From: Tannerella sp.
Lineage (GTDB): Bacteria > Bacteroidota > Bacteroidia > Bacteroidales > Tannerellaceae
Reading direction: 5' to 3'
NCBI GenBank assembly: GCA_031270465.1
Contig: JAISXP010000030.1
Coordinates: 1-53,095, forward strand
DNA length: 53,095 nt
Below are positions 4,019 through 38,354 of this stretch, in pieces (the stretch's first letter is position 1; the number at the start of each line of letters is the position of its first letter). The translations under genes were made by a program, and so were the position numbers. Under the pieces are notes generated by a model, which was not told the DNA's origin, made no database searches, and was given only the letters and a program-made list of their open reading frames with translations.

Positions 4019-5713
4019 TTATTCTACAATCATATCGTTCAGGCTCTTTCCGGCAGGCACCATCGGATAGACTTTCCCCGATTTTTCCACGTGTGCGACC
4101 AGCAGGAATCCGCCGTCATAATCGAGCATCTCGCGGATGGCATCGTCCAGTTCTTCCCGCCGGGATACGGTTCGCGCGCCCAACTGGTAAGCCCGGGCAA
4201 TGGCTGCGAAGTCGGGATTCTCCATCGTCGTAAACGAGTACCGTTCGCTCCAGAACAGTTCCTGCCACTGACGCACCATGCCGAGGAAGTCGTTGTTCAG
4301 GAGAATGATTTTCAGATTCAGTCTTTCCTGCATGACGGTACCCAGCTCCTGCAAAGTCATCTGCAAACCGCCGTCGCCCGCGAAACAGCAGACGGTGCGT
4401 TCCGGCGCGCCAAGTTTCGCCCCGACAGCCGCGGGCAAGCCGTATCCCATTGTCCCCAGTCCGCCCGACGAAACCAGACTGCGCGTACGCCTGTACTTGA
4501 AGTATCGCACGGCCATCATCTGGTTTTGTCCCACGTCGGTCACCAGCACGGCGTCGTGGTCTGTCGCTTCCGAGACTTTGCGCACCACCTCGCCCATGCG
4601 CAGGGGGCCTGTTTCGGGACAGATTTCTTTCCGTATCACTTTGATTTCTTCTTCCTGATCGTCGCCGTCAAACGAGGCGATCCATGTGTCGTGCCTCGCG
4701 GGACTCACCCGTTCCGTGAGGGCTTTCAGGATTTCCCCGGCGTCGCCCGGCAGGGGAATATCGACCGGCACATTCTTCCCTATCTCCGAGACGTCGATGT
4801 CTATGTGAATGATTTTCGCCTGCGGGGCATAGGTGTTCAGGTCGCCCGTCACGCGGTCGTCGAACCTCATGCCGATGGCAATCAGCACGTCGCACTCGTT
4901 CGTTTTGCGGTTGGGGCCTATGTTGCCGTGCATGCCCAGCATGCCTCTGTTCAGGCGGCAGTCCGAGGGCATGGACGAAAGTCCCAGCATCGTTGTGCCC
5001 GCGGGGATGTCCGCCTTTTCGAGGAAAGCGCTCAGTTCCTTTTCGGCGCCGCTCAGTATCACTCCCTGCCCGACAGCGGCAAACGGTTTCCGTGCGCCGT
5101 CGATCAGCGCCGCCGCTGCCGCCACATTTTCCGGATTGATTTCCGGAACAGGCTGATAGCTGCGGATGAAGCGTACCGGCTGGTACACGTAGTCGACCAT
5201 CTCCACCTGTGCATCTTTGGCAAAGTCGATCAGCACCGGCCCGGGGCGCCCCGACAGGGCAATGTAGAACGCCCGCGAGACAGCCCACGCGATTTCTTCG
5301 GCCCTGCGCACCTGATACGCCCATTTCGTTATCGGCAGGGCGATGCCTATCATGTCGATTTCCTGAAAGGCGTCCGTCCCCAGCAGCGGCGACGGGACTT
5401 GCCCCGTGATTACTACTATCGGCGTGCTGTCGATCATTGCGTCCGCAATGCCGGTAATCGTGTTGGTGGCGCCCGGACCGGATGTGACAATCGCCACGCC
5501 GGCCTTGCCGCTCACGCGCGCATAACCCTGCGCCGCATGTGTGGCGCCCTGTTCGTGGCGTACCAGCACGTGCCGCAGCCTGTCCCTGTAATCGTACAGG
5601 CAGTCATATATCGGTATGGCCTGCCCGCCCGGATATCCGAACACGCACTCGACGCCCTCGGCAATCAGCGTGCGAAGCAATGCTTCCGAACCTGTTATTC
5701 TGTCTTTTTCCAT
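4019..5713 (-). CDS. ilvB: Acetolactate synthase catalytic (large) subunit
   Basis: Thiamine diphosphate enzyme that condenses two pyruvates to acetolactate, or pyruvate with 2-oxobutyrate, the first committed step to branched-chain amino acids. The 564-residue protein has the three expected domains: an N-terminal Pyr domain with FGYPGGQAIPIYD and the catalytic Glu in VRHEQGATHAAQGYAR (E54), a central FAD-binding domain with AIGMRFDDRVTGD, and a C-terminal PP domain with the GDGGLQM...NN thiamine diphosphate motif. Length is standard. Followed after 21 bp by ilvN and preceded by ilvD with 34 bp between, so one operon. Confidence 0.97.
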   Translation of the reverse strand: MEKDRITGSEALLRTLIAEGVECVFGYPGGQAIPIYDCLYDYRDRLRHVLVRHEQGATHAAQGYARVSGKAGVAIVTSGPGATNTITGIADAMIDSTPIVVITGQVPSPLLGTDAFQEIDMIGIALPITKWAYQVRRAEEIAWAVSRAFYIALSGRPGPVLIDFAKDAQVEMVDYVYQPVRFIRSYQPVPEINPENVAAAAALIDGARKPFAAVGQGVILSGAEKELSAFLEKADIPAGTTMLGLSSMPSDCRLNRGMLGMHGNIGPNRKTNECDVLIAIGMRFDDRVTGDLNTYAPQAKIIHIDIDVSEIGKNVPVDIPLPGDAGEILKALTERVSPARHDTWIASFDGDDQEEEIKVIRKEICPETGPLRMGEVVRKVSEATDHDAVLVTDVGQNQMMAVRYFKYRRTRSLVSSGGLGTMGYGLPAAVGAKLGAPERTVCCFAGDGGLQMTLQELGTVMQERLNLKIILLNNDFLGMVRQWQELFWSERYSFTTMENPDFAAIARAYQLGARTVSRREELDDAIREMLDYDGGFLLVAHVEKSGKVYPMVPAGKSLNDMIVE

Positions 5714-5747: not shown

Positions 5748-7580
5748 TCAGTCCTCCACGATTCTCACTCCTCCTCTGTCTGCCGAAGCCACCATCCGCG
5801 AATAAGCGAGCAGCGACTTCGATACCTGTCTTTCGCGCACAGGTTTCCATGCCCTTGCGCCTTTAGCTTCCTCCTCTGCGCGGCGGGCGGACAGTTCGCC
5901 GTCCGTCAAGCGCACGCTGATTGTCCGGTTGGGGATGTCGATGTCGATCACGTCGCCGTCGCGCAACAGTCCGATTGCTCCTCCCGCAGCAGCCTCGGGC
6001 GAGACGTGCCCTATGCTCAGCCCCGAAGTGCCTCCGCTGAAGCGGCCGTCGGTGATCAGCGCGCACGACTTTCCCAGATGCATCGACTTGATGTACGACG
6101 TCGGGTAGAGCATCTCCTGCATGCCCGGACCGCCTTTCGGCCCTTCGTAGATGATGACCGCCACATCGCCGGCCTGCACTTTCCCGCCCAGAATGCCTTC
6201 GCACGCATCTTCCTGCGAATGGAAGACCCGGGCTGTTCCGCCGAAGGTCAGTATGCTTTCGTCCACGCCTGCCGTCTTGATGACGCAGCCGTTGCGGGCA
6301 ATGTTTCCTTTGAGCACGGCAAGCCCGCCGTCGCGCGAATAGGCGTGCGCCATATCGCGGATGCATCCTTCGGCGCGGTCGGTATCCAGCGTGTCATAAT
6401 ATGTTGCCTGCGAACCCATCGTCAGATTGAAGACGTTGGCCGGCGCGCTGCCGTATATCCTTGCCGCTTCGTCGCCGGTGCGACTGCCGGTGATGTCGTA
6501 CCTGTCGAGGGCTTCGCCCAGCGTCATGCCGTCCACGCGGCGAACGGATGTGTCTGCCAGCCCTCCCTTTGCCAGTTCCGCCATGATGCCGAGCACGCCT
6601 CCCGCACGGTTTACGTCCTGTACGTGATATTTTGCCGTGTTCGGGGCGACTTTGCACAGGCATGGCGACTTGCGCGAAAGGGCGTCGATGTCGTCCATCG
6701 TAAAATCCACGCCTGCTTCGTGTGCAATGGCCAGCAGGTGCAGGACGGTGTTCGTCGAGCCGCCCATGGCAATATCCAGCGTCATGGCGTTCAGGAAGGC
6801 AGCGCGCGAAGCAATACTGCGCGGCAGGACGCCGTCGTCGCCATCGCCGTAATATTTATATGTATTCTCCACGATCAGCGCGGCGGCATCTTTGAAGAGT
6901 TGCAGGCGATTCGCGTGCGTGGCTACAATCGTACCGTTGCCGGGCAATGCCAGCCCGATTGCCTCGTTCAGGCAGTTCATCGAATTGGCGGTAAACATTC
7001 CCGAACAGGAGCCGCATGTGGGACATGCTGCATCTTCAATCTGCCGTATCTCGCTGTCCGGCACGCGGGCGTCTGCGGCGGCGACCATCGCGTCTATCAG
7101 ATCCAGTTTGCGTTCGCCCGTCCGTCCGGCTTCCATTGGGCCGCCCGAAACGAAAACGGCGGGGATGTTCAGCCGCATGGCTGCCATCAACATGCCGGGC
7201 GTTATCTTGTCGCAGTTGCTGATGCAGACCAGCGCGTCGGCCTTGTGGGCGTTGACCATGTATTCGACGCTGTCGGCAATGATGTCGCGCGAGGGGAGCG
7301 AATACAACATGCCGTCGTGCCCCATCGCGATGCCGTCGTCGATCGCTATCGTATTAAATTCCGCCGCAAAGCAGCCGAGTTTTTCTATCCCGGATTTTAC
7401 CAGTTGTCCGGCTTCGTGCAGATGTGCGTGTCCGGGCACAAACTGCGTGAACGAATTGGCAATGGCTATCACCGGCTTGCCCAACTGTTCCTTTTTCATG
7501 CCGTTGGCCATCCAGAGCGCCCTCGCACCTGCCATACGGCGTCCCTGCGTGCTGATCAAACTTCGTAGTGCGTGTCGCAT
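5748..7580 (-). CDS. ilvD: Dihydroxy-acid dehydratase
   Basis: Iron-sulfur enzyme that dehydrates 2,3-dihydroxy acids to 2-oxo acids, the step after IlvC. The 610-residue protein (E. coli IlvD 616) has [11 protein letters not shown] with metal-binding D81, the cluster cysteine in SNCDKITPG (C123) and [11 protein letters not shown] (C186-C192). Where the [2Fe-2S] plant/archaeal type carries an extra cysteine near residue 49, this protein has FVPGHAHL, as in E. coli, so an oxygen-sensitive [4Fe-4S] enzyme is expected (inference). First gene of the ilv operon, with a consensus promoter about 100 bp upstream. Confidence 0.97.
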
Positions 7581-12690: not shown

Positions 12691-13824
12691 TTACCGTACC
12701 GGATTGGGATAAGGCGGATATCCGCCCTGGTATGGCGGCTGCTGCGGAGGATAGGGCGTCATGCCGCTCAGGTTGGTGTTGACCGTCATGGCTTGCAGCA
12801 GGCGGCTGTATACCTGATTGAGTTGTCCCAGCAGTTGCGCCATTCGTTCGTTTTCGGCACGGAATGCGCTGCTGTCCACGACGGAACTGTCGTACATGTC
12901 GCGGATACGGCTCAGTCCGGCATTGATGTGATGGATCGTATCCATTTGCGAACGCAATCCGTTCAGTTGTGTTTCGTAGAACTTGTTCAGTCCCGACAGG
13001 TTGTCGTTCAACTGTTCCATTTGCTGCACGTATCCGGGCGTCCTGTCTTCGGGCTTCTCTTCGTTTTGTGTTCCCGAAATGGCCTTGCACGAACTGACCA
13101 GCGAGTCCGACACTTCGCTCAGCGAAAGCGTCACGGCGTTGAATCGTTCCAGGTTTTGCGCCACCGTCGTGATCTGTTCGACATACGAGCGGGTAGCTTC
13201 GGTCATGTCTGCCATTTCGGCGATTTTTTCGGCGGCTTCGCCTAATTTTTTTATGCTGGCGGTGAGCGTCTGCGCGTCTTCTTCGGAGACGTTCAGCCCC
13301 ATCGTCTTCAGTCCTGCGTCGGCGCTTTGTTCGGGTGTGAGGCGTGGCGCCTGCGTGCCGCCTCCGCCGATTACAACCGTACCGCCTCCTCCGCCTGCAC
13401 CGCCCTGTGGTATATTGCCTATAATGACCGTGCCACCTCCGCCGCCGGTTCCTTCTGCGCCGACCGCACTGCCGATTCCTTCTGCGCCGACCGCACCGCC
13501 GATTATCATGCCGCCGACGGCTGCACCATCCTTGCTGAAATCGGGACGGTCCAGCGGATTTTTCGACTTGAGGACGGGGAATACTTCTTCCCAGTGATAG
13601 TCGTTCACCGGACGTTCGAAGGCCGAGATAAAGAATACCACCGCCTCGAATATCAGTGATATGCACAGGATTTGATTTGCGTACGGCAAGTGCACAATCT
13701 TGAACATTGCACCGATCACGACGATGGACGCTCCCCAACTGTAACAGAAATTCAGCACGCGTTTCCCTCTTTCGCTGGAGAGAAACATCTCTATTTTGTT
13801 TTTATACCGTCTGTATTTTCCCAT
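12691..13824 (-). CDS. porL: Type IX secretion system motor protein PorL/GldL
   Basis: Inner-membrane, motor-forming subunit with two N-terminal membrane helices (about residues 22-45 and 48-68: YSWGASIVVIGAMFKIVHL and ILCISLIFEAVVFFISAF) and a long cytoplasmic part. In family members a glutamate in the second helix (here in the SLIFEAVVFF segment) is implicated in proton flow. After FERPVNDYHWEEVFP comes an unusual Gly-rich stretch with near-repeats GSAVGAEG and GGGGGTV (about residues 105-155), then a helical segment and a Pro/Tyr-rich tail (YPPQQPPYQGGYPPYP). At 377 residues it is longer than PorL of P. gingivalis (about 309). Confidence 0.93.
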   Translation of the reverse strand: MGKYRRYKNKIEMFLSSERGKRVLNFCYSWGASIVVIGAMFKIVHLPYANQILCISLIFEAVVFFISAFERPVNDYHWEEVFPVLKSKNPLDRPDFSKDGAAVGGMIIGGAVGAEGIGSAVGAEGTGGGGGTVIIGNIPQGGAGGGGGTVVIGGGGTQAPRLTPEQSADAGLKTMGLNVSEEDAQTLTASIKKLGEAAEKIAEMADMTEATRSYVEQITTVAQNLERFNAVTLSLSEVSDSLVSSCKAISGTQNEEKPEDRTPGYVQQMEQLNDNLSGLNKFYETQLNGLRSQMDTIHHINAGLSRIRDMYDSSVVDSSAFRAENERMAQLLGQLNQVYSRLLQAMTVNTNLSGMTPYPPQQPPYQGGYPPYPNPVR

Positions 13825-36442: not shown

Positions 36443-36529
36443 GGAAAAATGGATGAATGACTGAGGGGGAGCGAAGGAATATTTATATTGATTGCCCCCT
36501 GCAAGGATTTCGCTATTTACCTGCCGGCA

Positions 36530-36866
36530 GAAAAAAAGACAATGTCTTTTTCTTTCCCAACTCGGTTGAGAGGAAAAATGACATTGTCTTTTTTATTTTC
36601 AAAATGTTTGAAAAGAAAAACGACATAGTCGGTTTCTTTTTCAAAACGTTTGAGAGAAAAAACGACATAGTCGGTTTCCTTTTCAAAACGTTTGAGAAAA
36701 AAAACGACATAGTCATTTTCTTTTCAAAACATTTGAAAGAAAAAATGACATAGTCGGTTTTCTTTTCAAAACGTTTGAGAGAAAAAACGACATAGTCGGT
36801 TTTCTTGCCAAAGCATTTCATGGAAAAAAGATATTGTCGATTTTCTTTCCAATACGTTCGGAGACG
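36530..36866. repeat. Tandem array of eight 41-42-bp units with alternating dyads
   Basis: The nine-base core GACAnnGTC (GATATTGTC in the last unit) recurs at 36538, 36580, 36622, 36664, 36706, 36747, 36789 and 36830, that is every 42 or 41 bp. Each unit has two dyads: GAAAA..CGAC-ATA-GTCG.TTTTC around that core, and TTTTC.TTTTCAAA-ACG-TTTGAGAGAAAA in the second half. Central units are nearly identical and end units are degenerate, as in an array that expanded from the middle. The array is AT-rich in a GC-moderate region and lies between convergent operons. Reading frames through it are 14-codon periodic by-products. Function unknown. Confidence 0.9.
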
Positions 36867-36898
36867 AATCAATAATTCAACCTTTATACATAATAAAT

Positions 36899-36947
36899 GC
36901 GGAGAGAAAGCACAATATAAATCATGCTTTTCTCTCCGCCGTTTTTT
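36899..36947 (+). terminator. Intrinsic terminator after the repeat array
   Basis: GCGGAGAGAAAGC and GCTTTTCTCTCCGC form a 13-14-bp stem around a 14-nt loop, followed by CGTTTTTT. On the plus strand it would end acn-icd-gltA transcripts that run through the array. In the other direction the T-run is poor, although the stem could also slow the fucosidase transcript coming from the right. Confidence 0.8.
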
Positions 36948-36977: not shown

Positions 36978-38354
36978 CTACCGTGCTTCGTTATAGATGC
37001 AGAATTCTGCAATAGCGGGAGGTGAGAAGGATTCATCGATGATAATCCTCACTTTTCCACCAAACATACGGTCGAAACGATGAAGTTTTACTTTCCGGCT
37101 ATCGACAGAGTCGAAAATCGTAATCCATTCGCCATTCTGTTCGCAGAGCAGACGGTATTTTGTGATACACTGCTTAGTGTCGTAGATGAGAATGGCATTG
37201 AAGAAGTGGTTACGCGGGAAATCGACCTCGAACCATGGTGTTTCAACTTCGTAATTAGATTGCCACGAAGTGCGGAAGTTGTCGTCATTACCGAAGTCCA
37301 TAATCATCGCATCGTTGCTCCAGCTTGAGTTGACGGACTGATGTTTGGCTATGTTAGAAGAAATTATGGGCGATTCGATAGACGGTAACTGTGGTACGGG
37401 AGTATCGTCACGCCAAAGCTGTCCAATTTTCGCAAGCGCTGCAAGGGCATTATCGTCGATGAGACCGTCGGTGTTCGGAGCAACGTTGAGAATGAAGTTG
37501 CAGTATGCCTTATTAAACGGTTCAAGATTGTCTCTGACTAGTGCGACGGGGTCTTTCACCGGGTCGACGGGGAAGGATTTCTTCCAGAACCAGTTTTTAT
37601 TTAGCGGAAGGCACGATAGCGCCGGCAGCCGGTTGGTTTCTTTTGAAATATTCTGTCCGGCGCCCTGTTCGTATGATTTGATGTCGGTATAAAACAGTGT
37701 TTCGGCAGGATACTTTGCAGCATTCAGATCCATAAGCAGACAGCTTGGCTGCAGATGCTTTACGAGCAGATATATTTCTTCAAAGGGAATGTCTTCATAA
37801 GAGATACGCGACCACGGAGCGTCCCAGCCATCAATTATCAGCGCACCTATTTCGCCATAATTCGTTAGCAGTTCGGTTAGCTGTGTCTTTATCATCTCAA
37901 TATGCTCCCGGGTGATGAAACCGGGACGCAGTTTGTGATGCGTGTCCAAAATAGAATAGTAGAACATGACTTTCAATCCCTCTCGACGAAATGCATCTGC
38001 GTATTCACGGACTATATCGCGTCTGAAAGGTGTATGCATTACGCTGTATGCCGTCGTCTTTGTATCCCAGATGCAAAACCCGCTGTGATGCTTTGTCGTG
38101 AGGCATCCGTACTGCATTTTGGCCGACTTCGCCGCACGCGCCCACTGACTGCAATCCAACTTTACGGGGTTGAAGATAGACGGATCGGCATCCGGATCAG
38201 GCCAGTCGTGATTTGTGAAGGTAGGAATGTTAAAATGAATGAACATTCCAAACTTCAAATCTATAAACTCCTGCTGCCGGTCACGCAGCGTGCGGTCTTC
38301 AGCATATGTCCACACGCAACAGACCGTCAGTATGGCAATGATTAACTGTTTCAT
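36978..38354 (-). CDS. GH29 alpha-L-fucosidase with C-terminal discoidin-like domain
   Basis: Predicted exported retaining fucosidase of 458 residues. A signal peptide (MKQLIIAILTVCCVWTYA) precedes the catalytic barrel: FGMFIHFNIPTF (H40), LTTKHHSGFCIWDT (H89/H90), RRDIVREYADAFRREGLKVMFYYS and the nucleophile in ALIIDGWD (D175). Residues about 320-458 form a beta-sandwich of the F5/8 type C kind (WSNDAMIMDFG, WFEVDFPRNHFFNAILIYD). Last gene of the SusCD locus, 20 bp after susD. Release of fucose suggests that the locus acts on fucosylated host or algal glycans (inference). Confidence 0.9.
   Translation of the reverse strand: MKQLIIAILTVCCVWTYAEDRTLRDRQQEFIDLKFGMFIHFNIPTFTNHDWPDPDADPSIFNPVKLDCSQWARAAKSAKMQYGCLTTKHHSGFCIWDTKTTAYSVMHTPFRRDIVREYADAFRREGLKVMFYYSILDTHHKLRPGFITREHIEMIKTQLTELLTNYGEIGALIIDGWDAPWSRISYEDIPFEEIYLLVKHLQPSCLLMDLNAAKYPAETLFYTDIKSYEQGAGQNISKETNRLPALSCLPLNKNWFWKKSFPVDPVKDPVALVRDNLEPFNKAYCNFILNVAPNTDGLIDDNALAALAKIGQLWRDDTPVPQLPSIESPIISSNIAKHQSVNSSWSNDAMIMDFGNDDNFRTSWQSNYEVETPWFEVDFPRNHFFNAILIYDTKQCITKYRLLCEQNGEWITIFDSVDSRKVKLHRFDRMFGGKVRIIIDESFSPPAIAEFCIYNEAR

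Follow-up and report, generated by a model that had tools for sequence, protein, structure and literature searches.

Tandem arrays with a period of four helical turns lie directly upstream of most DUF6261 genes examined

Introduction

In plasmid iterons, operators and parC/parS-type sites, tandem sites keep a conserved sequence together with their cognate protein. In eukaryotic centromeric satellites the period is conserved, and the sequence changes fast and is homogenised within each array. Here we analyse a tandem array of about eight 41–42-bp units, each holding two dyads (inverted repeats), in a 53,095-nucleotide stretch of DNA from Tannerella sp. (GenBank assembly GCA_031270465.1, contig JAISXP010000030.1, forward strand). 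This whole stretch, referred to below as the window, is contig C76 of a 3.03-Mb genome in 183 contigs (G000). We find arrays with a period of 40–43 bp, or four helical turns, directly upstream of most of the DUF6261 (PF19775) genes examined, and the window array has such a relative in its own genome. DUF6261, a family whose function is so far unassigned, is thereby tied to a repeat that keeps its spacing but not its letters, which offers a first testable function.

Like iteron-, operator- or centromere-like arrays, the arrays described here are regular tandem sites upstream of the gene of a possible binder. They differ in that 86%-identical proteins go with unrelated arrays and that a single chromosome carries 55 such genes. 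The likeness to eukaryotic centromeric satellites is an analogy only: here, too, the period is kept while the sequence changes, but the arrays are short, occur many times per bacterial chromosome and in many cases lie beside a gene family. Regular direct repeats are shared with clustered regularly interspaced short palindromic repeats (CRISPR), whose unique spacers are absent here.

Repetitive extragenic palindromes (REPs) and bacterial interspersed mosaic elements, together with their REP-associated tyrosine transposase (RAYT) genes (REPtrons), likewise combine dispersed short palindromes with a dedicated gene family beside some copies. According to one study, REPs form sequence families tagged GTAG or CGTC, the GTAG ones going with RAYT genes, and CGTC-tagged repeats occur in some Bacteroidetes without a dedicated transposase (PMC3733652). 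Unlike REPs, our arrays vary in their letters by locus and have a four-turn period, and DUF6261 is not a Y1 transposase. Two Y1 transposase (PF01797) genes are present in G000, on contigs C170 and C6, and we rejected a REP/RAYT link because no such gene lies on the contigs of the known G000 arrays.

The arrays are thus unlike the operators, iterons, REPs and CRISPR known to us, and the family is apparently undescribed so far: a search of the full-text literature, outside which most subscription papers and preprints fall, returned no description of 41/42-bp tandem arrays of Bacteroidales. DUF6261 itself appears there once, in a table row of a study on Streptococcus oralis (PMC10376253). Many uncultured Bacteroidales are among the organisms involved, as is the cultured Prevotella nigrescens. 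The link between protein and repeat also makes one question of repeat evolution testable in bacteria, namely how a period persists without its sequence.

The window array and its relatives in the same genome

Tandem Repeats Finder (TRF) places the array at 36529–36858 on the plus strand, with a period of 42, 7.9 copies, 82% matches and a score of 364. Eight GACAnnGTC-type cores follow one another at 42, 42, 42, 42, 41, 42 and 41 bp, and at lag 42 the best self-match over 84 bp reaches 89%, whereas 1000 shuffles of dinucleotide blocks of the array stretch itself gave at most 52%. The strict 41–42-bp period claimed in an earlier, model-made first-pass annotation is therefore borne out, as are its two dyads per unit, since eight dyads A and eight dyads B could be located, none assigned to a strand. 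Dyad A of unit 1 (36538–36546, GACAATGTC) is the reverse complement of that of unit 2 (GACATTGTC); the dyads A of units 2–8 lie at 36580, 36622, 36664, 36706, 36747, 36789 and 36830 (36580–36838 overall). Dyads B, of the CCAACTCGGTTG / TCAAAACGTTTGA type, lie at 36557, 36599, 36641, 36683, 36724, 36766, 36808 and 36849 (36557–36861), each about 21 bp from a dyad A. By eye, units in the middle of the array hardly differ from one another while those towards its ends have diverged, in agreement with the same annotation, whose suggestion of repeated expansion we count as right. The mirror-image dyads of the neighbouring units 1 and 2 (36538–36588) look as if a hairpin had been flipped. A similar pair, CCGACATAGTCGG / CCGACTATGTCGG, occurs at about 1140–1430 of another locus (L219, G154:C85), and both dyad orientations are present in 5 of the 45 home arrays that have such stem-loops.

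We call an array directly upstream of a DUF6261 gene a home array and a dispersed member away from DUF6261 an orphan. Used as a DNA query against G000, the window array matches C21:17793–17995 at 90% over 202 bases and C157 at 79%, with short matches at C60 and C38. The C21 array lies 78 bp upstream of a DUF6261 match (C21:16777–17715, minus strand), and the C21 and C38 arrays stand just upstream of genes for two 72%-identical DUF6261 proteins. The plus strand of the window array corresponds to the DUF6261-sense strand at C21 and is also the strand of the neighbouring gltA. Nine PF19775 matches were found in G000, of which those on C105 and C173 are fragments without a start codon. All seven other genes show a lag of 41 or 42 upstream, with self-matches of 0.96 (C21), 0.86 (C38), 0.99 (C68), 0.90 (C57), 0.87 (C149), 0.64 (C29) and 0.56 (C54); the last falls under our cut of 0.62, yet TRF reports an array there. 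The letters of these home arrays are largely unrelated between loci, C21 and C38 having parts in common.

For family membership we looked for a period of 40–43 bp with at least 62% self-match over 84 bp, which the window array shows, and for a relative directly upstream of DUF6261 in the same genome, which it has at C21. It is not itself upstream of DUF6261, and a profile search of the open frames of at least 50 amino acids found no DUF6261 match in the window; we therefore class it as an orphan, related to the array at C21. That it belongs to the family of DUF6261-linked four-turn arrays we consider almost certain. Other orphans of G000 resemble home arrays as well (C16 and C68, 92%; C71 and C57, 86%). 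In the first of these pairs, promoter-like box, leader and array at C68 (L050) seem by eye to have been copied to C16 (L214), where another gene, possibly for a surface protein, seems to follow in place of DUF6261.

Association with DUF6261 across genomes

We scored the 500 bp upstream of each DUF6261 gene for the best lag between 25 and 74, taking a self-match of 0.62 over 84 bp as the cut; the counts for named loci, genus and closed congener are cut at, or show, a rounded 0.62. A profile search for PF19775 gave 81 matches in the order, spread over 14 of the 119 genomes sampled; in a phylum sample, 6 of 296 genomes had the family, and none of 14 control genomes did. In the order, a lag of 41–43 was found upstream at 48 of 71 loci and downstream at 1 of 69, and none of 1420 shuffled upstream sequences reached the cut. 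These 71 loci are the 81 matches less eight that were not fetched and two without a start codon in the contig. Of the 23 negatives, two have technical causes and were left uncorrected in the counts as first made: L094 results from a wrong choice of start (from the inner ATG, lag 42, 98%), and at L090 masked bases (165 N in the upstream sequence) produced the lag of 27.

Two further sets gave the same picture. Within the genus, the array was present upstream (lag 41–43) at 20 of 27 loci and downstream at 1 of 26; 28 of the 81 matches outside the window's own genome came with loci, one of which had less than 200 bp upstream. Among named loci, from metagenome-assembled genomes labelled Bacteroidales, Prevotellaceae, Tannerella and Dysgonamonadaceae plus one Bacteroides fragilis, it was upstream at 9 of 15 and downstream at 0 of 13. 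Two of the original 17 were set aside, L138 for lack of upstream sequence and L125 for its 100% identity to the query, which was taken from G064. On a Prevotella nigrescens replicon (L142, NZ_CP082843.1), the ATG at 5986 of an annotated DUF6261 gene is preceded by a 41-bp array (95%). The deposited gene start at 5848 falls inside the array, which we take for an annotation choice. Shortly upstream of this locus, at 4754–5179, stands a gene for a GxxExxY protein.

A closed congener (G140) consists of one contig of 3,013,500 bp with 55 dispersed DUF6261 genes. A period of 40–43 was present upstream at 36 of 54 of them and downstream at 4 of 54, one gene having been left out for want of an ATG under the rule used. 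The even spacing of the 55 genes is not beyond chance (P 0.07). Elsewhere, several DUF6261 matches lie at contig ends; since the closed congener holds far more copies, fragmented genomes may undercount both the genes and the arrays.

The association was also compared between genomes. In background windows, a period of 40–43 was found 21 times in 1262 in DUF6261-bearing genomes, the window array counted, and never in 774 in DUF6261-free genomes; among congeners the figures are 19 of 982 and 0 of 532 (Fisher p 3.6e-4). The control stretches were not picked for arrays, the window itself excepted. The 21 positives came from G140 (14), G134 (2) and, with one each, G142, G147, G029, G093 and the window, and three bearers (G132, G064 and G111) gave none. 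The 14 in G140 are from 200 background windows, and become 15 in a count in which the 0.62 cut was rounded.

Conserved geometry

What the arrays conserve is the period together with two dyads per unit at 20.5–21 bp, or two helical turns, from each other and, in the first set, a 10.4-bp rhythm. We drew array statistics only from loci with a TRF array of 40–44 bp (50 arrays, or 70 including the genus). In the 70 arrays a second dyad stands 20.5–21 bp from the strongest dyad with z of 4.4 and 7.2, and this spacing was replicated in 32 home arrays of G140 (z 4.5 and 4.7). Orphans of G140 show the second dyad at 20.5 bp (z 2.6; 11 of 14 random-stretch units used). Three near-duplicate G140 arrays were dropped from this replication. 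In purine/pyrimidine composition, the harmonic of about 10.4 bp (one fourth of the unit) reached z 8.0 in the 50 arrays; it was weakly replicated in G140 and was not significant in the 11 orphans there (z 1.6). Helical periodicity of A/T against G/C bases is absent from the arrays.

The letters behave differently from the spacing. Over 2415 pairs drawn from the 70 arrays, mean unit similarity is 0.41 at protein identities below 30%, where 0.40 is expected by chance, 0.44 at 40–60%, and 0.54–0.59 in the seven pairs above 60%. One pair, C54 and L134, shares its array (unit similarity 0.79) at a protein identity of 81%. Positive selection on DUF6261 was not seen: wherever window values were defined, dN was lower than dS (five of six pairs could be computed). 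Arrays of 63 bp upstream of L075 and L093 (G111), considered as three-dyad units, were set aside as leucine-rich coding repeats (by eye) of the neighbouring gene.

DNA element or RNA device

The first-pass annotation had proposed that the window array is transcribed as the 3′ untranslated region (UTR) of gltA. In its wider form, this explanation has the arrays transcribed, as a 5′ leader of DUF6261 or at the 3′ end of gltA, so that a chain of hairpins would serve mRNA stability, termination or protein binding. In its favour, 9 of 50 home arrays have promoter-like TAnnTTTG boxes within the preceding 150 bp (antisense control, 1), and because of such boxes some home arrays are probably transcribed. 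Units also fold better than shuffled sequences (mean z −1.8 sense, −2.8 antisense), and a terminator-like hairpin follows the window array. At six home arrays such boxes lie between the array and the start codon (antisense control, 2).

Selected transcript hairpins should show more G.U than A.C mismatches on the sense strand. Applied to home arrays, this test counted G.T 99 times and A.C 114 times in 50 arrays, and 94 against 121 times in 32 arrays of G140; pooled, the numbers are 193 and 235, or 45% G.T (95% interval 40–50%). As the stems lack a G.T excess, an RNA-hairpin 3′ UTR is not supported. The slight excess of A.C is itself noted (pooled p 0.047), as is a sense strand with more A than T and more C than G. 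In predicted folding, the antisense strand does at least as well: 27 of 70 arrays have the lower minimum free energy on the sense strand, with antisense slightly lower on average (p 0.05); in the window the sense strand is that of gltA. Position argues in the same direction, as the array related to that of the window lies upstream of a DUF6261 gene, and orphans are (by eye) in sense to their flanking genes at C16 and antisense at C71, C157 and C60. We therefore regard an RNA device as unlikely. Most simply, the arrays can be read as double-stranded DNA elements that are transcribed incidentally.

Two other classes were tried and rejected, as the first-pass annotation had done. A coding repeat does not fit, because 42-bp arrays are open on both strands alike (sense 35 of 37, antisense 36 of 37), the period is 41 in 27 of 70 arrays and no Pfam family was found. 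A CRISPR array does not fit either, because there are no unique spacers and the whole 42-bp unit, with both of its halves, recurs.

A proposed platform for a protein reader

At a rough probability of 0.45, we favour a reading in which the arrays are double-stranded platforms for a protein, DUF6261 or a DUF6261-dependent reader, with home arrays taking part in the control of DUF6261 and orphans acting as remote sites. A dimeric protein would occupy the array cooperatively on one face of the helix, each 21-bp dyad taking one dimer. As reader, the DUF6261 protein or a partner under its control would be the simplest candidate; home arrays would then make DUF6261 expression self-regulating, and orphans such as the one behind gltA would be remote sites of the same DUF6261-linked protein. 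Of the roles listed in the first-pass annotation, a chromosomal protein-binding array thus fits best, although direct DNA binding by DUF6261 is something we infer from gene position and not from the protein.

The protein is predicted to be all-helical, with about 250 amino acids in nine helices (mean predicted local distance difference test score 86, predicted template modelling score 0.58, from a 13-sequence alignment). A Foldseek search of BFVD gave no match at E 0.001 (best 0.04). The lowest E-values in sequence searches were 7e-5 for a coiled-coil-like ZorA match in PADLOC and 1.7e-4 for DNA polymerase IV in NCBIfam, the latter far under the cut-off. A phage or plasmid origin was considered and rejected: DUF6261 was found in no phage record and, with one query, in no viral contig, and the plasmid collection holds one record, the 568-kb Prevotella nigrescens replicon. 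Some members carry extra C-terminal parts: in G000, a common stretch beyond the domain (L039, L042, L050) and, in G111, a long Ser/Gly/Thr tail (L075, L084). These parts look extracellular, with no obvious signal peptide by eye.

Several results weigh against a DUF6261-linked reader. No recognisable DNA-binding fold was detected (Foldseek against PDB, none at E 0.001, best 0.2), sequence searches of PDB, PHROGs, PADLOC and NCBIfam gave no convincing family match, and the proteins are mildly acidic (median isoelectric point 6.1, 99 proteins). Protein and array similarity are barely correlated in rank (0.04 over 2415 pairs). In G111, two 86%-identical DUF6261 proteins (L075 and L084) go with unrelated arrays (0.39), both of period 41, which excludes a fixed cognate site for this pair unless specificity shifts very fast; we accordingly dropped the idea of one fixed sequence per DUF6261 protein. 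About one third of DUF6261 genes have no array by our cut (23 of 71 in the order, two of them technical), and the place of the arrays relative to transcription is not uniform, since promoter-like boxes occur on both sides. The 10.4-bp rhythm is not specific in G140, where harmonics 2, 3 and 4 have z of 2.7, 3.0 and 3.0. The genome-level contrast leans on G140: without it, 7 of 1062 windows stand against 0 of 774 (p 0.024, or 0.043 without the window array), and for congeners the figures become 5 of 782 and 0 of 532 (p 0.085, or 0.15). Finally, DUF6261 need not be the main partner, because non-home arrays are probably more numerous than home arrays in G140, about tenfold by extrapolation.

This abundance bears on the main rival, a selfish satellite, which is compatible with much of the evidence for a protein platform. 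Here a self-spreading or locally amplified repeat would be built, copied or maintained by DUF6261 or an associated activity with a four-turn ruler; benefit to the host would be unneeded, and the dyads would be what the machinery recognises or leaves behind. In five 20-kb stretches of G140 without DUF6261, 13 of 17 tandem arrays have a base period of 40–42, which, with the 55 dispersed gene copies, suits such an element. So do the duplicated L075 and L084 loci: besides DUF6261 itself they have the upstream gene's end, as far as the stop codon, in common, and their arrays are entirely different but of equal period. Orphans that resemble home arrays, and the mirror-image dyads of the window array and of 5 of 45 home arrays, point the same way. 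Among 14 non-home arrays of similar size in G140, good matches to a home array were found for two (86% over 483 bases and 79% over 418), and a weaker one for a third (71%). On the other side, Pfam scans of the DUF6261 proteins show no transposase or recombinase domain (terminal repeats and target duplications were not searched for), and the retained dyad spacing suggests selection on binding. We consider a selfish satellite possible, if doubtful.

A passive repeat, born of slippage or unequal recombination and without function, would make the DUF6261 link a case of hitch-hiking. The complete turnover of letters between close paralogues is what it would produce; against it, the 40–43 period recurs in unrelated sequences and several families, no such window was found among 774 in DUF6261-free genomes, and dyad spacing exceeds shuffles in two array sets. 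We hold this to be improbable.

A more far-reaching proposal, which we put forward tentatively and think rather unlikely, is that DUF6261 proteins read, and perhaps help to build, arrays by helical geometry, with one dyad per two turns and one unit per four, and not by fixed sequence, as a bacterial 'satellite' system. One chromosome can hold tens of DUF6261 genes (55 in G140) and, as extrapolated from 13 arrays per 100 kb, some hundreds of arrays; if the proposal is true, these would amount either to a level of chromosome organisation not seen before or to a selfish repeat measured out by a physical ruler.

The gltA location and other features of the window

In the window, the array follows gltA, for citrate synthase (PF00285; 35099–36442, plus strand), and faces a convergent gene for an alpha-L-fucosidase-like protein (PF01120 plus F5/8 type C; 36978–38354, minus strand). 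This placement between convergent genes would suit a barrier or insulator. Such a role is very improbable, however, because home arrays lie upstream of genes and, in the G140 stretches, 12 of 14 arrays are between co-directional predicted open reading frames (one is convergent and one divergent; five overlap a predicted frame).

The first-pass annotation had called for a search of related genomes. Among 15 gltA loci with downstream sequence (the window's own genome, 11 congeners and three others of the order), a 42-bp array stands downstream of gltA at three (G000, G134 and G124), and the letters are unrelated by eye. Nor is the gltA array itself conserved: of 40 other genomes in the genus, 4 gave weak matches. 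The 9 kb fetched at the G134 and G124 loci contain no DUF6261 match. If the 21-bp dyad is the elementary module, repetition at that spacing would be expected, and by eye a part of the G134 array does recur about every 21 bp (CGCGTnnACGCG).

Beyond the repeat, at 36899–36939 on the plus strand, a 12-pair stem followed by CGTTTTTT forms a terminator-like hairpin, in line with the strong plus-strand terminator reported after the array in the first-pass annotation. A standard terminator scan reported none and missed this hairpin because it accepts only loops of 3–8. Rfam at gathering threshold gave no match in the window. Two open frames across the array, of 98 amino acids (36457–36753, plus strand) and 119 amino acids (36513–36872, minus strand), match no Pfam family and are considered spurious. 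Further upstream, at 13442–13518, TRF reports a 27-bp tandem repeat of 2.3–2.9 copies that is apparently unrelated to the 42-bp array.
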